In this document: in pieces, positions 24,232-34,069 of the stretch
Numbering within the stretch: position 1 is the stretch's first letter
How the letters are laid out: every line of letters begins with the position of its first letter
Source: an uncultured Acetatifactor sp.
GTDB taxonomy: Bacteria; Bacillota; Clostridia; Lachnospirales; Lachnospiraceae
NCBI GenBank assembly: GCA_947594835.1
Contig: CANQEH010000001.1
Coordinates: 62,001 to 126,000 of the forward strand
Direction: 5' to 3'
Length of the DNA stretch: 64,000 nt
The notes under the pieces: generated by a model
What the model saw: the letters and a program-made list of their open reading frames with translations, nothing else
Told to the model about the DNA's origin: nothing
The model's database searches: none
Made by a program: the position numbers and the translations under genes

Positions 24232-24945
24232 TCAGGAATGATTCATATCTTCTATTTCCTCAGAAATAGCAGTCACAATCTTTTCTATATCACTAATGTA
24301 TGTTTCAACATCTTCACGTTTAATATCTAATTTTTGACCGGTTTCATGCAGACAATCAGCTTGGTGGGCAATCTGGTTTCTCCGCCTGAACAAAGCGTTT
24401 AGCGTATTTTTCAATTTGTCCTTCGTCGGTGTCGTTGAACCTTGCGTATGAAAAGCCCTATCTGCAACACTTTGCCATTTTACACCGATAAGATTCAATT
24501 GGCCAATCACGGCATCGGCGCTCATAAACGTATCTTCCGCATAGGAATCATTTACAATATCCAAAAACCAGTTTTCCTGTTCCGGGTTTCTGAGGACATC
24601 TGAAATCTCACCTAAACGGATTGTGAAATTGTCATATCGTTCTGTCTTTTCCCAAACGCCTTGAAATATTTGTACCATGCCATATTTTGTCGCTTCATGA
24701 ATAAAGAAGTCCAGAGCACTATCAAGAAAGACAATTTGAGATCTTAAAATATCCTTATACTGCAAATTCTCTTCGGCTTTTAGTTTTTCAACCAATTCAA
24801 ATTGGGACTTGATAGATAATAAATTGTCTGCAAAGCGATTTTTGATGGCTGACAGTTCAAATGGTATGGTTCGATTAGGACGTCTATTACGTGTACCGAC
24901 ACTTCTAGGTGTAAGTTCAAGATTTCTTTCTTCCGATTGAGGCAT
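24232..24945 (-). CDS. HEPN-type putative RNase/toxin (RiboL-PSP-HEPN / MAE_28990-like), partner of adjacent ATPase
   Basis: C-terminal ALFRRRNQIAHQADCLHETG contains RX4H (RNQIAH) HEPN motif; start codon overlaps the ATPase stop (TAATG). Confidence 0.75.
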   Translation of the reverse strand: MPQSEERNLELTPRSVGTRNRRPNRTIPFELSAIKNRFADNLLSIKSQFELVEKLKAEENLQYKDILRSQIVFLDSALDFFIHEATKYGMVQIFQGVWEKTERYDNFTIRLGEISDVLRNPEQENWFLDIVNDSYAEDTFMSADAVIGQLNLIGVKWQSVADRAFHTQGSTTPTKDKLKNTLNALFRRRNQIAHQADCLHETGQKLDIKREDVETYISDIEKIVTAISEEIEDMNHS

Positions 24946-26195
24946 TAAAATCCCTCCTCTGCAGGAAATACCAAAGGATTATGAAGAAAAGGAATCGCGC
25001 CATATTTTCCGTTCATGTATCCTTTGTTGATATTTTCATCTTTTCTTACATTTCTTAACTCTGCCAATGAATACAGATCGGTCGCCCTATCGTCATTCAG
25101 TTCAGTGAACCAAATTTGATCCCTTCTAAACGTATTTAAATCCAACAAATTGGTATCATGCGTACTAAAAATAAGCTGGGCCTTAGAATTCGGTTTTCCA
25201 TACATAATCAGTCTTAATATTTCTTTTACAATATAGGGATGTAAACTTGTCTCCAGTTCATCCCAAATCAAAACCTTATCTTTCAGAATAATATCTATAA
25301 TCGGCCCGAATACTTCAAATAATTTCTGCACACCTTTAGATTCTTCATTTAAGTTTACAGAGAACATACCATAATCTATGTTTGCTTCTGACCTTGTTAC
25401 TTCTTTTACCTGTGCAAAAAAAGGTTTTATTTCCTCTGGTATGTGTTCGGGAATCAATTCCGGGGACATCTGCGTTTTCTCATATTTAGTATCTATGTTT
25501 TGAATAGGTGTATCAACAGATTTCATAAAATCAATAAATATCTTTTTTAATTTAGGATCTTTGGTAAATCTTTCAATAGAATATTCCAGCCAATTGTTGA
25601 TTTCTAAGGGCAGCGGATAAAAAATAAGATCTTCCTTAAAGAATAAAAAAACTAATTCTGCTTCTTTGACTGCGGAGTAATTTGCAGAAACAGATAGAAA
25701 TAATTTATTGGGTTTCATAAAATTTAATATTGCTTCAAAATGTTTTTTGAATTTATCGCCAAAGGATATTTCACTTATATTCCTATCAAAAATCTTTGCC
25801 TGCTTTCCGTTCGGAAAATAGTAAAGATATTCAGATATAATCTGCTCCGATGTATAAGACAGGCCGTAAGCATAACGTACATCTTCTTTCACGAATTGGA
25901 TCGCATATGTTGTGGGAGTATCTGGCTTTGCAAGCTTATGCGGAATCTGTCTGATTTTGTCACCCGGTTGATGATTGTTGCTATTACAAACTAAAAGTTT
26001 TAAAAAGGATAATGAATCTAAAAAGCTCGTCTTTCCAGAACCATTTGCGCCATAGATTGCTGCTGTTTTCGTAATAAGAGTCCCTTTGTAATCTATCAGG
26101 AGTTTTTCAAAAGAATTATCCTTTGAGGCAAGCATGGAAAATGTCACTTTTTCTTTGATTGAACGGAAATTTTCACAAGTATATTCCAAAAGCAT
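24945..26195 (-). CDS. AAA family ATPase (COG1106/AAA_15-AAA_21-like, SMC/ABC-type)
   Basis: ENFRSIKEKVTFSMLAS; Walker A IYGANGSGKTSFLDSL; Walker B VLIWDELETSLHP; LIFSTHDTNLLD. Confidence 0.88.
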   Translation of the reverse strand: MLLEYTCENFRSIKEKVTFSMLASKDNSFEKLLIDYKGTLITKTAAIYGANGSGKTSFLDSLSFLKLLVCNSNNHQPGDKIRQIPHKLAKPDTPTTYAIQFVKEDVRYAYGLSYTSEQIISEYLYYFPNGKQAKIFDRNISEISFGDKFKKHFEAILNFMKPNKLFLSVSANYSAVKEAELVFLFFKEDLIFYPLPLEINNWLEYSIERFTKDPKLKKIFIDFMKSVDTPIQNIDTKYEKTQMSPELIPEHIPEEIKPFFAQVKEVTRSEANIDYGMFSVNLNEESKGVQKLFEVFGPIIDIILKDKVLIWDELETSLHPYIVKEILRLIMYGKPNSKAQLIFSTHDTNLLDLNTFRRDQIWFTELNDDRATDLYSLAELRNVRKDENINKGYMNGKYGAIPFLHNPLVFPAEEGF

Positions 26196-26437
26196 AGCAA
26201 CACCCCTTTTATTTTATTCGGTAATTATATTATATCCAAGGCAGTGCAAAAATCAACCCGTATTTCGGATTTTAAACAAAAATAAAATGTTTTTTCTTGG
26301 ATTCTGATATTTAATTTTGCGTTTTTGCAATTTTTTCGTATTTAGGCATTAAAAATCGTAAAATTATTCAGTTCAAAACAGAAAGATTCTTTCATTCTGC
26401 AAAACCGCCATATGAAAACCGAAGATTTAACATAAAT

Positions 26438-26455
26438 GGAAACAAAAATGTTTCT
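26438..26455. promoter_or_regulatory. Putative operator palindrome copy 1: GGAAAC-AAAAAT-GTTTCT
   Basis: Matches 28684..28701 with same 6-nt spacer; upstream of the small peptide ORF. Confidence 0.55.
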
Positions 26456-26532
26456 AAAAAGATGATATATTTTCAGAACAGATAGGAGTAAAATAATAGA
26501 AAACACATGACAATCTTGAGGAGGGTAAGAGG

Positions 26533-26679
26533 ATGAAAAAGAAATTTTGGAACCATCTCAAAAGGATCACGGCGGGTGTGATGGCGGCAGCTCTCCTGTT
26601 TACGGCGGGGTATCAGGGGAGCAGGGAACCTATGGCCTCGACGTGCGAGGAGGAGGAAACACAGCCTCATAGAACCTAA
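26533..26679 (+). CDS. 48-aa putative secreted signalling pre-peptide (not in ORF track)
   Basis: MKKKFWNHLKRITAGVMAAALLFTAGYQGSREPMASTCEEEETQPHRT; strong SD (gaggagggtaagagg); basic N-terminus plus hydrophobic core; tail-to-tail with regulator gene. Confidence 0.65.
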   Translation: MKKKFWNHLKRITAGVMAAALLFTAGYQGSREPMASTCEEEETQPHRT

Positions 26680-28616
26680 TCTTCTAATAAAATATTAAAA
26701 TTCGCCTCAAAAGCCCTTTTTAAGATTGCGGCGCTACTGTCTTGGTTCATTAAGCCTTTTGCGCGGCAACAGTAAACGGCATACAGGGTAGCAGCATCAA
26801 ACTGCATACATTCCCCCAAAGCTTGACAATAATAAAATAGGTAGGAACCATATGTATCTATGTTATAACACATGAGATTAAACGCTTTACAAAATTGCTT
26901 TTGTAATTCCAAAACGGCGTTGTATTGTCTTTGGATGTAAAGTGTGTGGCAATAGGCTTTCAATGTATGCGGGTAAACTTGTGCTTGTAACATGATACTG
27001 GGACATACTTTGGCTATATACGCTGTTATCTGGTGGTAATAAAGACTACACAAATAGGAATCATCTGTCTTGCGGTAGGCATCCGCCAGACAGTTCAAGA
27101 TAGACAATTCCTCCCAGGATAGCCGACAGGTCATAATTTCATGGATATCAAAATCTGGAAGGGTGTAGTGCAAAGCTTTCTTCAATCCAGATATTCTGTG
27201 GGAAGGAGAACGGTTTTTCAATGCTTTGACAACCAAAAAGTCCTGATAGTAAAGTACATCTTTTTCATCAACCAGCCGCTCCATTTCTTGAAAATAGTTT
27301 TCTTGCATTTTTGAGGACAGATTTTGTATATGTATCAATTGAAACTTCAAGTCATTCAGTCGAGATTCTCTTTCGTTTCCCCAAAAGGTAAAAATCCGCT
27401 CGGATATGCCGAGGCGCTGTAAAAGAGCCTCCGTAAGCGCAATATCCGGCTGCAGGGAGCCGTTTTCAATTTTGGAGAGCTTTGACTTACCGCAGAGCCC
27501 ATGGCAGACAATGTCCATGGAGAGGTTTTGTTCAGTCCGAAGGTCGTGTAACAGCATTCCCAGGGTATAGATGTCCGGGGAATCGGCGTTAAAGATACCG
27601 TTGGAAAAATGCCCCGTATCCATGATTTCTTTTACGGGATACGTTTTGGAATCTATTTCCGGCATTTGCCGCATATAGTCAGAGACAGGGAAATCCGTAT
27701 GCCGGGACAGGTGCTCCCGGCATACATTGGCATAATTGCTTTTCACAGCGTGGGCTGTGTAGAAAACATTTTTGATATGTTCTGCTGCCTTTGGGGTATC
27801 ACCCAGATGATGCAGGCCAAGCCCCATTAAAAAGGTCAGCTCCAAAAGAAGCGATAGATTCCAGTACAGCGCCGTTGCGCTGCGGTATCTATCGGTAGTC
27901 TCTACTGCAGATAGGCAGTCCCCTGTGCCCAGCAAATACTTTGCATAGACCACGGCGTCCTCCGCCTGCATCCGCTCTTTTTCCAGACTGGAAAACTTGC
28001 TGTCTGCAAGATAAGCCTCTATCTGCGTATGAATTGCCAGACAGGTATCACGCTGTCCCAGGTAGAGCGCCTCCTGGGCCAGGGCGGTCAAAATCTGGAT
28101 CTCATTTTGAGACAAAAGAAGCGCCCGGAAATCAAAGAGATCGATATCGGGGCGCGAAATATGCAGGGCGTTTAACAGGACATGATAATTCCGGGCGTGG
28201 TCGCACTGATAGGAAAGAAACTGGAGCCTGCCGTGTAAAAGCAGCCATTCCTGATAATATAGTTTATTGTCCGCCCAGCCGTATGTTTCAAGCTTCTCCA
28301 GCTCTTCCCACGCGGGGGCAAGCTGCCAGGCGTCCAGATGAAAGCGGGCAAGCTTTAAGGCGTAAAAGCAGTCGAAGTCACTGCGGCTGGCGAAAATCGG
28401 ATATCTTTCACAGGGCGCACCAGCGCGCTCCATCAGCGCCTGAAAGGTAGCGGGGCTGACGCCTGCGGCGCCGGTTTCTATCCGGGAAAGCGCCTGGATG
28501 GTACAGATGCCCTCCGACATCTGCTCCTGGGTCAGACCGGCGGCTGACCGGGCTTCTCTGATGGCATCTTTAGCGCTCCTTACACTCATAAGGCCTCCAT
28601 TGTGACTGAAAAACAA
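26676..28616 (-). CDS. Transcriptional regulator with two XRE HTH domains and TPR-like helical repeats (RRNPP/PlcR-Rgg-like architecture)
   Basis: HTH 1 IREARSAAGLTQEQMSEGICTIQALSRIETGAAGVSPATFQALMERAG; HTH 2 LHDLRTEQNLSMDIVCHGLCGKSKLSKIENGSLQPDIALTEALLQRLG; helical repeats. Confidence 0.82.
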   Translation of the reverse strand: MFFSHNGGLMSVRSAKDAIREARSAAGLTQEQMSEGICTIQALSRIETGAAGVSPATFQALMERAGAPCERYPIFASRSDFDCFYALKLARFHLDAWQLAPAWEELEKLETYGWADNKLYYQEWLLLHGRLQFLSYQCDHARNYHVLLNALHISRPDIDLFDFRALLLSQNEIQILTALAQEALYLGQRDTCLAIHTQIEAYLADSKFSSLEKERMQAEDAVVYAKYLLGTGDCLSAVETTDRYRSATALYWNLSLLLELTFLMGLGLHHLGDTPKAAEHIKNVFYTAHAVKSNYANVCREHLSRHTDFPVSDYMRQMPEIDSKTYPVKEIMDTGHFSNGIFNADSPDIYTLGMLLHDLRTEQNLSMDIVCHGLCGKSKLSKIENGSLQPDIALTEALLQRLGISERIFTFWGNERESRLNDLKFQLIHIQNLSSKMQENYFQEMERLVDEKDVLYYQDFLVVKALKNRSPSHRISGLKKALHYTLPDFDIHEIMTCRLSWEELSILNCLADAYRKTDDSYLCSLYYHQITAYIAKVCPSIMLQAQVYPHTLKAYCHTLYIQRQYNAVLELQKQFCKAFNLMCYNIDTYGSYLFYYCQALGECMQFDAATLYAVYCCRAKGLMNQDSSAAILKRAFEANFNILLED

Positions 28617-28683
28617 AGCAATGTGATACTGCCTACATCATAAACGATGTCAATAAAAAACGCAATACCGAATAAACAAAAAT

Positions 28684-28701
28684 GGAAACTTTTTCGTTTC
28701 C
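28684..28701. promoter_or_regulatory. Putative operator palindrome copy 2: GGAAAC-TTTTTC-GTTTCC
   Basis: Perfect 6-bp arms; between divergent regulator and M16 operon. Confidence 0.6.
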
Positions 28702-28705
28702 GATA

Positions 28706-28735
28706 TTGTTGTGGTGAAAAAAGGAGAAATATAAT
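28706..28735 (+). promoter_or_regulatory. Putative promoter of M16/RiPP operon
   Basis: TTGTTG-18 nt-TATAAT. Confidence 0.5.
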
Positions 28736-28774: not shown

Positions 28775-30043
28775 GTGTATGAATTGCTAAATGCCTATCT
28801 GGGAAATGGGCTGCGTGTGATCCTTCATAAAATAGCAGACGCCAGAACCATATCCTGCGGTCTATGGGTCAGACAGGGAAGCAGTTATGAGACAGACGGC
28901 GATAATGGACTGTCTCATCTGGCCGAACATCTTTTGCTGAATCCAGAGACGGCCAACAACAGAGAATATACAGACCTGATTGGGAAGGCTGTATCGTGTG
29001 GGGTCATCTATAATGCTGCAACGACAAAGGAGTACACTTGCTTCCATTTTACGGGGATGGCAAACGCGTTGGATGTGTGCCTTTCCAGCCTGGCGTGTAT
29101 CGCCATGGGAAACAGGGATTTTCCCGTAGAACGATTTGAAAACGAGAAGAAAGTAGTTTTGCAGGAAGCCACGGGGTATTATTCTTCCTTTCAGCAGATC
29201 AAGGAACGTACAAGTCAGGCGATCTGGGGAAATACGGGAACGGGAAGGATTATCATGGGGGATATACGGAGTATATCGAATGCAACCCCGGGCCAGATCG
29301 AAGAGATTCTGGGGAAAGCGTATCATCCTTCCAATGCCATCGTGGTTGTGATCGGTAATATTGATTATACAGAGACCTTGAAGATGATAGAAAATAAATT
29401 TCACGGGTGGCGTCATAAGCGCGATGCGAATGGCGAGGAGGTAGTAGAAAGTGAACCGGGAATCTATGTGAATCATGGAAGCGGAGCCAGCACGGTATTT
29501 TCAGTGGGTTTTCGCGCGCCTGCTTACAGCGAGAGAAATCGGCCAGCTGTAGAAATGATGGCCCGGATCCTTGGCCAGAGCGGTCTGCAGTCAAGAATGA
29601 CGAAAGAAATTAGAATGAGAAGGGGACTGGCGTATACGCTGGGCAGTTTTTCCAGCTTCTACAAAAATCGTGGCACCCTGGGATTTATGGTGGTCTGTGA
29701 AAATGAGAAGGCCGTCGACGCGGCATCTGTTCTCATGGACGTGTTGAACGAGGCAAAGACAAAAGGCTTTACCGAGGAGGAGATCGAAAGAGAAAAAAAT
29801 ACGATGGAAACAGCCCTTTTGCTGTCGGTGGACAATATCACAGAGCATCTTCGACATATTGGGAAATGCAGCATAATGGGCCATAGCTTTTATATCGAAC
29901 AGGAATTGAGCGCTGTCCGGGATATCTGTAGGGAAGACGTGGCACGGATGGCGGATGAACTCCTGCGTGACAGCAATATGGGCTTGGCGGTGATTGGCCA
30001 GTGTAATACGGATAAATTATTTGAAGTAGTAGATCTTGGATAA
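28775..30043 (+). CDS. M16 family metallopeptidase (insulinase/PqqF-like), single subunit
   Basis: Zinc motif HLAEH (HXXEH) in GDNGLSHLAEHLLLNPE; M16 fold sequence; GTG start with gggggag SD. Confidence 0.85.
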   Translation: MYELLNAYLGNGLRVILHKIADARTISCGLWVRQGSSYETDGDNGLSHLAEHLLLNPETANNREYTDLIGKAVSCGVIYNAATTKEYTCFHFTGMANALDVCLSSLACIAMGNRDFPVERFENEKKVVLQEATGYYSSFQQIKERTSQAIWGNTGTGRIIMGDIRSISNATPGQIEEILGKAYHPSNAIVVVIGNIDYTETLKMIENKFHGWRHKRDANGEEVVESEPGIYVNHGSGASTVFSVGFRAPAYSERNRPAVEMMARILGQSGLQSRMTKEIRMRRGLAYTLGSFSSFYKNRGTLGFMVVCENEKAVDAASVLMDVLNEAKTKGFTEEEIEREKNTMETALLLSVDNITEHLRHIGKCSIMGHSFYIEQELSAVRDICREDVARMADELLRDSNMGLAVIGQCNTDKLFEVVDLG

Positions 30044-30629
30044 GGGGGTGAATCGCGTGGCGGATATGGCCTGCATTTACGAAATGAATATGCTCGCAGA
30101 AAACGAACAGCTGGAACAGGACATCTTGTCGGGGCGCGGTATGGACATCTTGTTTTGCCTGATGGATCGTGTGTCTACAAGGCGGGAAATTGCAGAACGT
30201 CTTAACATACCGGGTTATTCTGTCAACCTGTATCTGCAGCGGCTTGTCAAAGCGGGGCTGGTGCGGGAAGAAACACGGATCGGCAACGGCCAGGCAGAGC
30301 GGCGCTATCAATTGGTTGCAGAACGTCTTGAAATCGTCAATCGGATGCAGGAAAATCCTTTGACAGACACGGAAGAAAAACAAAAATTAGAACTTTCCGC
30401 CAGACAGTTTTCTTTGATGACGCGAAATGCGATCATGAGTGCAAAGCAGTATGAGGGATTGCCGCATAAAATCAAAGCCTACTTTATGAAAGCCAAAAGG
30501 GAAGATATGGTGAGATTCAGGGAGGAGATCGACCGGCTGTTTGAAAAATACCGGGATATGGAGGACCCGGAAGCAACAGAAACTTACAGCTTGTTTTCGG
30601 TGATGGCGCCGTATGAGGTGGAGAGGTAA
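30036..30629 (+). CDS. Winged-helix (ArsR/MarR-like) regulator; start uncertain
   Basis: MDRVSTRREIAERLNIPGYSVNLYLQRLVKAGLVREETRIGNGQAERRYQL. Confidence 0.65.
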   Translation: MDKGVNRVADMACIYEMNMLAENEQLEQDILSGRGMDILFCLMDRVSTRREIAERLNIPGYSVNLYLQRLVKAGLVREETRIGNGQAERRYQLVAERLEIVNRMQENPLTDTEEKQKLELSARQFSLMTRNAIMSAKQYEGLPHKIKAYFMKAKREDMVRFREEIDRLFEKYRDMEDPEATETYSLFSVMAPYEVER

Positions 30630-30740
30630 AGCAATAAATGTTGTTTAGGCATAAACTTTAAATCACGGGTGTGCGGCAGCTGCGCGTGAATCGGCGCAGA
30701 CTCGTCATGTGCAAAGCCAAGCGCGGGAATGGAGGAAAGC

Positions 30741-30875
30741 ATGAAGGGAAAAGAAATACGACAGAGCAATGAAGAAATTCAGGAAATTCAGAAAACAGAA
30801 ATAGTGTTGGCGCAGGAGGAAGAAAATCCCGGAGTCGGCATTGAAATCGTTATTGGCCCGGATAGTCTGGGTTGA
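30741..30875 (+). CDS. 44-aa peptide, candidate RiPP precursor A (not in ORF track)
   Basis: MKGKEIRQSNEEIQEIQKTEIVLAQEEENPGVGIEIVIGPDSLG; SD ggaggaaagc; immediately upstream of precursor B and a radical SAM gene. Confidence 0.55.
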   Translation: MKGKEIRQSNEEIQEIQKTEIVLAQEEENPGVGIEIVIGPDSLG

Positions 30876-30906
30876 TATAAGAAAAAAGAAAGGAAGGAAC
30901 AAAAGC

Positions 30907-31080
30907 ATGGAGAAGAAAATCATGGTTGGTGCGGAGGAACTGCAGGTGCAGGACGGAAGGGTCACGATTCTTTCAGAGGAATTGGCCAGAGCGATACAGG
31001 AGCAGGAGGTCGATCTTGCAGGGGACGAGGAAGCAAATGCCATTGTCAATATACAGTTTAAATGCCAGAATGGAGGCTGA
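30907..31080 (+). CDS. 57-aa peptide, candidate RiPP precursor B
   Basis: MEKKIMVGAEELQVQDGRVTILSEELARAIQEQEVDLAGDEEANAIVNIQFKCQNGG; SD aaaggaagg; acidic leader-like region. Confidence 0.6.
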   Translation: MEKKIMVGAEELQVQDGRVTILSEELARAIQEQEVDLAGDEEANAIVNIQFKCQNGG

Positions 31081-31177
31081 GTGTTGATCCCTTGCTTATT
31101 TTCTTGATCCCGTATTAAATAGGAGTAAGAGTTAGGCGGATCAAAGCACCAGCGGCAGTCGACTAGATTTGGCCGTT

Positions 31178-31318
31178 CAAGGGCGGAGAAAAACAACCAT
31201 AGAGTCGGATGAATGAGATCATGTATGATAAACAGACAGATATTTCATGTATGTGGATCGTTACTGTCTGGGTTGGACTTTTTCACACGACTGCGATTGG
31301 TTGTTTTCTCCTGCCTTT
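31178..31318. repeat. Imperfect inverted repeat (about 25-30 bp arms) enclosing about 80 bp; possible MITE or long hairpin
   Basis: left ggagaaaaacaaccat-agagtcg (31185-31207), right cgactgcgattggttgttttctcc (31288-31311). Confidence 0.55.
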
Positions 31319-31366
31319 GGATAACTGATTTCTTTTTAGACCATCAAAAGACAGATGGGAGAACAT

Positions 31367-32647
31367 ATGAAGCTATCAAAATACTCTGTGACAGTTTCCA
31401 TAAATGAACAACAGGAAATGATCTACAATACGCGCTCCAGACAATATCTGGTGTACCAAAAGTGTGACGGGGGAAAAATATGGGACTTCTTGTATCATAT
31501 CAACAAGGGTTCCTATGACATAGAAGAAGTAAAATTATTTGAAAAGTTGTTGCGCAAGGGTATTGTTTGCCGGGATAGTGTGGATGAGCTGGAAGAATTG
31601 AGGAGGGAAGAAAATCAACAAAAAAGTGATGATGACACTTTCCGGCTGACTATTTTTGCGACAAATGAGTGCAATTTTCGGTGCGTTTACTGTACCCAAG
31701 AGCATATTGTGCAACACTTGAAGGACAGTGCGGCAGACAGTATTTTAAAATTGATAAATAAAAAAGCATCTGAGTTCAAAAAAATCATTTTATATTGGTT
31801 TGGTGGCGAGCCGTTATTAGAATTAAATCGTATAAAATATGTGATGGAGCAAGGACAGAGGATTTGTGAGCAAAGAAATTGTTGCATTGAGTCCTTCATG
31901 ACAACGAACGGGTATCTGTTGAATGAATCGAGAATCCAGCAGCTGAAAAAACTTGGTCTGTACGGCGTGCAAATCACGATAGATGGAAACAAAGAAACCC
32001 ATAATACAAAAAGGATACTGGCCGGTGGACAAGGAACTTATGAGCAAGTACTGCAAAATCTGATACTGTGTCTAAAGTGTGGGATCCGTGTCATTCTGAG
32101 AATGAATGTGAGCGATGAGAATGCTGCGGACATATCAGAACTCTTGAATAGCATTCCGAAAGAGTATCGCTCTGACGTAATGGTGAGCATTGCTAACATT
32201 TTTCAAAATGAAGAGAAGTCAGATGTCTTTCCGCTGATGAAACAAGTAATGGAAAGCGGGTATCTTATCTATCAAAGACAGAACAGTTACGTTGGATGTA
32301 GTTGTTGCTTTTCTAATTCAGTTACAATCGATACAGATGGTTCTCTCTTGTTGTGCACCCATGCGAAAGAAGGCAGAGTAGGTCATTTGGGTTTTGACGG
32401 CAACGCTGTTATCGAGGAAACGGCAAAAGTCCATCAGATGAAGACGGTATCTGCATTAGACAATCCACAATGCCGGGATTGCATTGAACTTCCCTATTGT
32501 TTGGGGGATTGCAATTTTGCAAGAATCAAGTATAATCAGTGTTGTCTGGGGAAACGGGCAGACGGTATGTCCGTGGAGGAACAGGCACTGCTAGATTATT
32601 ATTATGATGAGTGCAAAGAGAGACTTCTCTTACAGGCGTATGAGTAG
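31367..32647 (+). CDS. Radical SAM/SPASM domain peptide maturase
   Basis: CNFRCVYC (CX3CX2C), FGGEPLL, C-terminal SPASM-like cysteines (CSCC...C, QCRDCIELPYCLGDC). Confidence 0.9.
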   Translation: MKLSKYSVTVSINEQQEMIYNTRSRQYLVYQKCDGGKIWDFLYHINKGSYDIEEVKLFEKLLRKGIVCRDSVDELEELRREENQQKSDDDTFRLTIFATNECNFRCVYCTQEHIVQHLKDSAADSILKLINKKASEFKKIILYWFGGEPLLELNRIKYVMEQGQRICEQRNCCIESFMTTNGYLLNESRIQQLKKLGLYGVQITIDGNKETHNTKRILAGGQGTYEQVLQNLILCLKCGIRVILRMNVSDENAADISELLNSIPKEYRSDVMVSIANIFQNEEKSDVFPLMKQVMESGYLIYQRQNSYVGCSCCFSNSVTIDTDGSLLLCTHAKEGRVGHLGFDGNAVIEETAKVHQMKTVSALDNPQCRDCIELPYCLGDCNFARIKYNQCCLGKRADGMSVEEQALLDYYYDECKERLLLQAYE

Positions 32648-32698
32648 GTAAACCGCAAAAGTATGATTATCAATTTTTAAATAGCAGGAGGACATCAC

Positions 32699-34069
32699 AT
32701 GGAAGGACAGAAAAAGATTGGCTATCGGGATATTTTCCGGCAGAAGGAATATATGAAGATGATCGTGGCCGCCATGATCAACCGCTTCGGCGATTCCATA
32801 GACGCCATTGCCTTTACCTGGATCGTCTATGAGATCACGGGAAATGCGGCGTGGTCGGCGTTGATCTATGGACTGAATATTATACCTTCGATCATCGTGA
32901 CTCCCTTTGCAGGCGCCTGGGTGGAGAGGAAGCGCAAGAAGCCCATTATGGTTTTGACCGACCTGGCGCGGGCGGCCTGCGTGGCCTTTGTGGCCACAGG
33001 GTATCTGGCGGGCTTTCTGCGTCCATGGATGCTGATTGTGAATACATTGATCATCTCCACCGTGGAGGCTTTCCGGGGGCCTGCCAACACTGCGCTGACC
33101 CCGATGATCCTGGAGAAAAAATACTATGAGTATGGGATGTCGCTTATGACCACCCTTTCCAGTGCGGTACAGCTGATCGGATTGGCCATGGCGGCGGCAG
33201 TCATTGCGGTGATTGGAAGCGCCGGGGCGCTCTATGTGGATGTGACCACATTTGTCCTGTCTGCACTGATTATTTTGTTTGTGAAGGTGCAGGAGAAAAA
33301 GGCAGAAAGGCAGCCGGAAAAGCGGAAGGAGCAGGCGGCGGGGAAAGCGGAAGAAAGCTACTGGTCTGTCCTTGCATCAGGCTTTCAATATGTGGGGCAG
33401 AATAAGATTGTTATCTTCCTGATTGCTACAATTATTATGTTGAACGCTCTCATAACCCCGCTCAACAGTCTGCAGGCGCCGCTTGCCGACGAAATCCTGC
33501 GGACAGGGGCAGAGGCGCTGTCTGTCATCGGTATTACACTGACTTTAGGGATGATGCTGGGATCCTTTGTCTACCCGATGGTACGGAAACTGCTGAAAGG
33601 GAAGATTCTGTTGTCTTTGGCGGGACTGGGCATCGGCGTATACTATTTGTCCATGGTCGCCGGGCAGCCGCTCTATGACAGCAAGGTATTTCTGTATCTG
33701 TTCATTGCCGTGCTGACCGGGCTGATGGGAGTGATGGTGTCCTTGCTGAACTCCTTCCTCAGCGTGGAGTTTGTCAAGCAGACAGATGAAGCTTATCTGG
33801 CCAGGGTTAATTCGATTCTTTCGGCTTTCAGCTGTGCGGCGTCTCCGCTGGTAGCTTTTATCATCAGCGGCATCGCGGCATTTTGTGACACGCAGGTTAT
33901 CTTTCTGGCGACGGGGATCCTTGCCCTTCTGGCAAGCTTTCCGCTGTTGTTTTCCAGGACGCTGGATATGCTGGATAAAACCCCGGAAGGGGAAGGAGAG
34001 GAGCAGGGATCGGAACCTGCAGCCCGTCAGGAAGAAATTTCTTATATAACGGATGGAGCATACGATTGA
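32699..34069 (+). CDS. MFS transporter
   Basis: MINRFGDSIDAIAFTWIVYEITGNAAWSALIYGLNIIPSIIVTPFAGAWVERKRKKPIM; multi-TM. Confidence 0.87.
   Translation: MEGQKKIGYRDIFRQKEYMKMIVAAMINRFGDSIDAIAFTWIVYEITGNAAWSALIYGLNIIPSIIVTPFAGAWVERKRKKPIMVLTDLARAACVAFVATGYLAGFLRPWMLIVNTLIISTVEAFRGPANTALTPMILEKKYYEYGMSLMTTLSSAVQLIGLAMAAAVIAVIGSAGALYVDVTTFVLSALIILFVKVQEKKAERQPEKRKEQAAGKAEESYWSVLASGFQYVGQNKIVIFLIATIIMLNALITPLNSLQAPLADEILRTGAEALSVIGITLTLGMMLGSFVYPMVRKLLKGKILLSLAGLGIGVYYLSMVAGQPLYDSKVFLYLFIAVLTGLMGVMVSLLNSFLSVEFVKQTDEAYLARVNSILSAFSCAASPLVAFIISGIAAFCDTQVIFLATGILALLASFPLLFSRTLDMLDKTPEGEGEEQGSEPAARQEEISYITDGAYD

Follow-up and report, generated by a model that had tools for sequence, protein, structure and literature searches.

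Does the short open reading frame (ORF) that meets a large regulator gene tail to tail in this 64-kb window (the whole stretch of DNA analysed, from an uncultured Acetatifactor sp. of the family Lachnospiraceae) encode a peptide at all and, if so, is that peptide a signal for the adjoining regulator? The initial annotation listed a secreted 48-aa peptide here, and the two elements on which the first question turns are the following.

26518–26525, + strand: Shine-Dalgarno-like GAGGAGGG (from the sequence)
26533–26679, + strand: propeptide gene, signal-peptide-like, 48 aa, MKKKFWNHLKRITAGVMAAALLFTAG... REPMASTCEEEETQPHRT (from the sequence, homologues and dN/dS)

The 48-aa ORF, with its ATG at 26533 and its TAA at 26677–26679, has exactly the sequence and coordinates first proposed, and the ATG stands 7 nt from the end of GAGGAGGG. 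Its stop codon has 2 nt in common with that of the regulator (CTA on the + strand, 26676–26678), as had been described and as can be seen in the sequence, so that the convergent ORFs overlap by 4 nt; the predicted RNA fold of this overlap was uninformative (z = -1.78). According to a hydropathy heuristic, the peptide has a K/R-rich start followed by a hydrophobic core. Searches of Pfam and NCBIfam with the peptide returned no family match, AgrD included, and its identification as an AgrD cyclic-lactone pheromone was dropped for lack of a match to these models. The peptide gene also adjoins a probable abortive infection-type defence pair (24232–26195), an AAA ATPase (AbiLi model, E = 4e-87) and a RiboL-PSP HEPN protein.

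By itself such an ORF is unremarkable, and its 48-aa length and the lack of a family match are what could be said for its being open by chance. The genome encodes a paralogue of the regulator (48% identity), which likewise meets a signal-like ORF, of 50 aa, tail to tail; this pair (L060, G000:C10:46348-48454) adjoins a different operon. Within the genus, convergent peptide ORFs accompany eight of the nine regulators with an intact 3' flank, the one in the window included, and seven of these eight peptides retain a Cys at the aligned position, several within a C-terminal motif G-[IV]-x-P-C-G-[DE]-x-E. A peptide profile run against 138 genomes of the genus gave E ≤ 3e-18 only for the eight regulator-adjacent copies, the next match (E = 3e-6) being the signal segment of a long protein. 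One row of the peptide alignment (row 8) contains two surplus residues (MK), which is immaterial because the strong matches coincide with ORFs taken directly from the DNA. Tandem relatives from other genera (L069, L070, L071 and L074) have a convergent peptide too, with gaps of -6 to 0. Altogether, a convergent signal-peptide-like ORF, often with overlapping stop codons, was found beside 14 of the 15 tandem relatives examined first; the tandem regulator of L056 has no visible peptide ORF, and in L102 the peptide is present with no Shine-Dalgarno match.

Under strict criteria (ATG, Shine-Dalgarno sequence, K/R-rich charged start, hydrophobic core and a gap of -12 to +80), such an ORF follows 13/15 tandem regulators and 0/212 other genes, counts obtained after L059 (tandem) and L104, L109 and L110 (single-module) had been reassigned by hand from the controls; the name filter alone gave 12/14 and 4/216. 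Across 392 genomes of the order, the strict count was 17/31 for tandem and 22/77 for single-module regulators vs 2/136 for controls, many relatives outside the genus failing the test (14/31 tandem and 55/77 single-module). In the closest pair, dN/dS is 0.34 over the peptide ORF and 0.16 over residues 1–60, and the peptide frame has the lowest value of all six. A frame not conserved among relatives was the observation named at the outset as speaking against the gene, and the frame proved to be kept. Because of the regulator-adjacent profile matches, the strict convergent counts against controls and the dN/dS values, the ORF stands far above chance; these same data contradict a spurious ORF, whose probability we regard as negligible. 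Judged by these sequence comparisons, the peptide ORF is real and under selection within a gene pair. A scan of genome contigs recovered a single copy, truncated and from an uncultured Lachnospiraceae genome, and one of viral contigs recovered no relative. In the order-wide set (L152–L258), some genomes, G557, G599 and G640 among them, encode at least four receptors of this type, and several of these receptors have a peptide and a palindrome to themselves, an enlarged signalling repertoire.

The architecture of the regulator bears on the second question.

26676–28589, - strand: tandem HTH-TPR/HTH-TPR regulator, likely receptor, 637 aa (Pfam HTH_31 twice, PlcR profile, internal duplication, AlphaFold2)
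28413–28562, - strand: HTH 1, residues 10–59 (Pfam)
27390–27563, - strand: HTH 2, about residues 343–400 (Pfam, PlcR profile)
26679–27587, - strand: module 2, PlcR-like HTH and TPR superhelix, residues 335–637 (profile, AlphaFold2, Foldseek)

Its length is 637 aa if translation starts from the ATG at 28589 and 646 aa if it starts from a TTG. Two stretches exceed the Pfam cut-off for HTH_31, which gives the protein the XRE-type HTH of RRNPP receptors, and residues 1–318 are homologous to residues 319–637 (24% identity over 188 columns, E = 3e-11). The profile of 15 tandem relatives matched PlcR (2qfc) with E = 1.2e-13 over nearly the whole PlcR length, and that of module 2 did so with E = 1.3e-18 over 270 residues. 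AlphaFold2 models were confident for both the tandem regulator (pLDDT 90.8, pTM 0.91) and module 2 (pLDDT 91.1, pTM 0.87). In Foldseek, the best match of module 2 was the PlcR-PapR-DNA complex, followed by ComR and then by Rgg and PrgX, with TM scores of only about 0.5. The Pfam TPR models had no match in the regulator; by profile and predicted fold, it has the TPR superhelix homologous to known receptors that is expected of an RRNPP protein. The regulator is thus read, from its sequence, as two fused PlcR-like HTH-TPR units. In the module tree, modules 1 and 2 of the tandem group form separate clades. The HTHs have diversified less (71–73% identity) than the TPRs (41–54%). Two single-module receptor genes share one locus in L109, L110, L156, L178, L181 and L246, and may represent unfused forerunners of the tandem.

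The 48-aa peptide encoded directly beside the receptor is within the 10–100 aa expected of an adjacent RRNPP propeptide. At 637 aa, the tandem exceeds the 250–500 aa allowed for receptors by RRNPP_detector, a limit derived from validated lengths of 285–473 aa (PMC10075063), whereas its single-module relatives, mostly 300–340 aa, are inside that range. This limit is a detection rule rather than a biological requirement, and a published RRNPP scan would skip the tandem class because of it.

The window also contains two copies of a candidate operator, a palindrome GGAAAC-N6-GTTTC[CT] with a TAAAT-like extension in front.

26428–26455, + strand: operator copy 1, TAACATAAATGGAAACAAAAATGTTTCT, top-ranked in the 64-kb window, 77 nt upstream of the peptide ATG
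26489–26494, + strand: predicted -10 TAAAAT, 33 nt after operator copy 1, no -35 consensus
28674–28701, + strand: operator copy 2, between the regulator and M16 genes, core GGAAACTTTTTCGTTTCC at 28684, rank 2 in the window
28730–28735, + strand: predicted -10 for the M16 operon, TATAAT, 28 nt downstream of operator copy 2

A leave-one-locus-out scan of the window, with a position matrix trained on the other loci only, placed exactly these two sites at ranks 1 and 2. At the other loci, the top site likewise precedes either the peptide gene or the regulator/divergent operon, except in L061 and L103; in L103, the top and only strong operator precedes an M16 operon that has the peptide gene as its last gene. 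L102, from another genus, carries an identical 28-bp site at both places, which extends to a 30-bp palindrome, perfect but for its spacer (CTAAATGGAAAC-N6-GTTTCCATTTAG). Order-wide, a long palindrome (score ≥14) was found upstream of 25/37 peptide genes vs 19/228 control genes (p = 1e-14). More distant relatives have a different palindrome sequence in a similar geometry, its centre mostly about 39–48 nt before a -10-like hexamer.

In the 2.76-Mb genome itself, the longer pattern with ≤1 mismatch has four matches, two here, one at the paralogue and one elsewhere. There are 11 matches to the shorter pattern, as against 23 to its backward control; the pattern being rarer than its control, it is position and not the bare motif that carries the signal. 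The flanks of the L060 paralogue contain no complete GGAAAC palindrome, only a degenerate copy on the regulator side and a half-site on the peptide side. Two operator-like matches were rejected, C8:73018, near an OppA gene, as a chance match inside the OppA coding sequence, and C4:118386, which lies within the coding sequence of a neighbouring gene and not before the single-module relative.

A TANNNT hexamer begins exactly 33 nt past the operator in 21 of 24 sites, which are not all independent since the L057 and L058 genomes are near-identical. The mean match to TATAAT at this offset is 4.29/6, as compared to 3.00 for the 99.9th percentile of shuffled sequences, and none of 2000 shuffles scored as high. 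On the M16 side, the usual offset of 33 is occupied by TAGGAT, and TATAAT is found at +28 instead. No -35 consensus was visible over the 24 sites. Promoters that have a -10 but not a -35 element are expected to need an activator bound just upstream, and the spacing between operator and -10 is probably that of an activator, the activating sign being read from promoter geometry only. Operator-like sites that likewise have a -10 at offset 33 occur at L061:9311, L055:1867 (where the locus is turned round) and L102:4160, and are possible extra regulon members.

The second operator precedes the putative target operon.

28775–30043, + strand: M16 peptidase, opening the putative target operon (Pfam Peptidase_M16 / M16_C; kept in L102 and L103)
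30036–30629, + strand: winged-HTH protein (Pfam search; counterparts in L102 and L103)
30729–30875, + strand: small ORF 1, possible RiPP precursor (conserved C-terminal segment around EEENxGIxYEI)
30907–31080, + strand: small ORF 2, possible RiPP precursor, MEKKIMVGAEELQVQDGRVTIL...
31355–32647, + strand: radical SAM maturase-like protein (scoring under the NCBIfam cut-off for every family shown)
32699–34069, + strand: MFS-like transporter, downstream of the radical SAM gene (assigned from sequence; L102 and L103 have counterparts)

This gene order is kept in L102 and L103, which belong to two other genera, and the operon (28775–34069) could possibly specify an unassigned class of RiPP with two precursors. 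The peptide might itself be a RiPP precursor, modified by the neighbouring radical SAM and M16 enzymes, as its conserved Cys and the position of the L103 peptide gene at the end of that operon would allow. We consider this very improbable: a radical SAM gene is missing from the surroundings of most copies of the peptide gene, two conserved small ORFs already belong to the operon, and the N-terminus resembles a signal peptide. Also unlikely, if somewhat less so, is a role as a small effector, secreted or in the membrane and resembling a bacteriocin or an immunity protein, which the regulator merely controls together with the operon. The signal-like N-terminus and hydrophobic core, the predicted control by the operator and the co-regulation with a RiPP-like operon would suit such an effector. 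However, it is the regulator, rather than the operon, with which the peptide travels; elsewhere the pair adjoins ABC transporter or lipoprotein genes, which marks it as a movable regulatory unit. The same partner is found beside single-module relatives, and homology to PlcR predicts a peptide ligand. The pairing and its RRNPP-like reading, an inference in the initial annotation, are supported by conserved microsynteny, by the PlcR homology (E = 1e-18 by profile) and by an operator common to the peptide gene and the M16 operon; the peptide is probably a secreted signal for the neighbouring doubled PlcR/Rgg-like receptor.

The propeptides of the family are about 43–76 aa long. Several lack an obvious AxA cleavage site, the pairing with the regulator is closely one-to-one, and the presence of Opp, seen as three binding-protein genes (SBP_bac_5) in this genome, is not specific, all of which would suit a co-factor or sequestering partner that acts on the regulator inside the producing cell or in the membrane, in a cell-autonomous feedback with no export or re-import. 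We give this reading little credence, as many members have AxA-like sites and the variable polar tails typical of exported propeptides, and known RRNPP propeptides are exported.

The reading that we prefer, and consider likely, is an autoinducing RRNPP-type system in which a pseudo-dimeric receptor activates its own peptide gene and the RiPP-like operon. Export, maturation, import and binding are steps that we infer from homology. The propeptide would be exported and then cut down to its C-terminal part, which in this genus mostly centres on a Cys and follows the consensus G-[IV]-x-P-C-G-[DE]-x-E. An Opp transporter, of which binding proteins are encoded in the genome, would bring the mature peptide back into the cell, where the TPR superhelix would bind it. 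The peptide-bound regulator would occupy the palindrome, with one half-site for each of the two HTHs in the chain. It would then activate weak promoters whose -10 is about 42 nt from the operator centre, those of the peptide gene, in a positive feedback, and of the divergent operon that runs from M16 to MFS, which probably specifies a RiPP pathway. The convergent overlap of the 3' ends may add antisense interference.

Among known systems, PlcR-PapR of the Bacillus cereus group is alike in its XRE HTH and TPR receptor with an adjacent gene for a small exported propeptide (export being predicted here), in the alignment of module 2 over nearly all of PlcR and in giving the best fold match. It differs in that the solved PlcR chain has 293 aa and one HTH-TPR unit per receptor, as is typical of that subfamily, whereas two units are fused here; in addition, the peptide gene is convergent with overlapping stops, and its C-terminal peptide usually has a Cys in this genus. 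The operator palindrome is presumably not the PlcR box. In streptococci, Rgg peptide-regulator pairs are found beside radical SAM peptide-maturase operons, as here, and Rgg is also an XRE regulator with a TPR-like C-terminus. Rgg-controlled radical-SAM RiPP operons of streptococci are among the subjects reviewed in PMC13361665. The SHPs, short and hydrophobic, leave the cell through PptAB (PMC10075063), whereas the propeptides here, of the length given above, are Sec-like and their receptor is a tandem. ComR is among the Foldseek matches; it is an activator and its peptide gene comS is autoinduced, a likeness to the circuit proposed here, although ComR-ComS has a single module, an unrelated peptide and another gene order. 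The Qsr/QssR systems of solvent-producing Clostridium (PMC10075063) are likewise RRNPP-type systems of Clostridia; their receptors are single-module and within the 285–473 aa of validated receptors.

The main text of PMC10075063 does not mention Lachnospiraceae. In the open-access literature searched, we found no description of tandem RRNPP receptors, which makes their novelty provisional, and no open-access paper that combined RRNPP, quorum sensing and Lachnospiraceae. Beyond the initial annotation, the receptor appears as a fused tandem, the operator marks two promoters and the pair is widespread; it is found repeatedly across the bacterial order and has seemingly escaped notice. We suggest, tentatively, that the fused receptor has two separate peptide pockets, so that a single molecule could respond to two signals (the convergent peptide plus a second one, or one peptide twice) as an obligate pseudo-dimer or a logic gate, and that such receptors may form a large unrecognized RRNPP branch in Lachnospiraceae and related families, with its own peptide and palindrome in each lineage. 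The fused receptor would also lend itself to testing the way in which palindromes are read by RRNPP dimers. Descriptions of peptide signalling in Lachnospiraceae are scarce, and receptors, propeptides, operators and target operons assembled across the family allow the identity of the signal to be tested directly with synthetic peptides.
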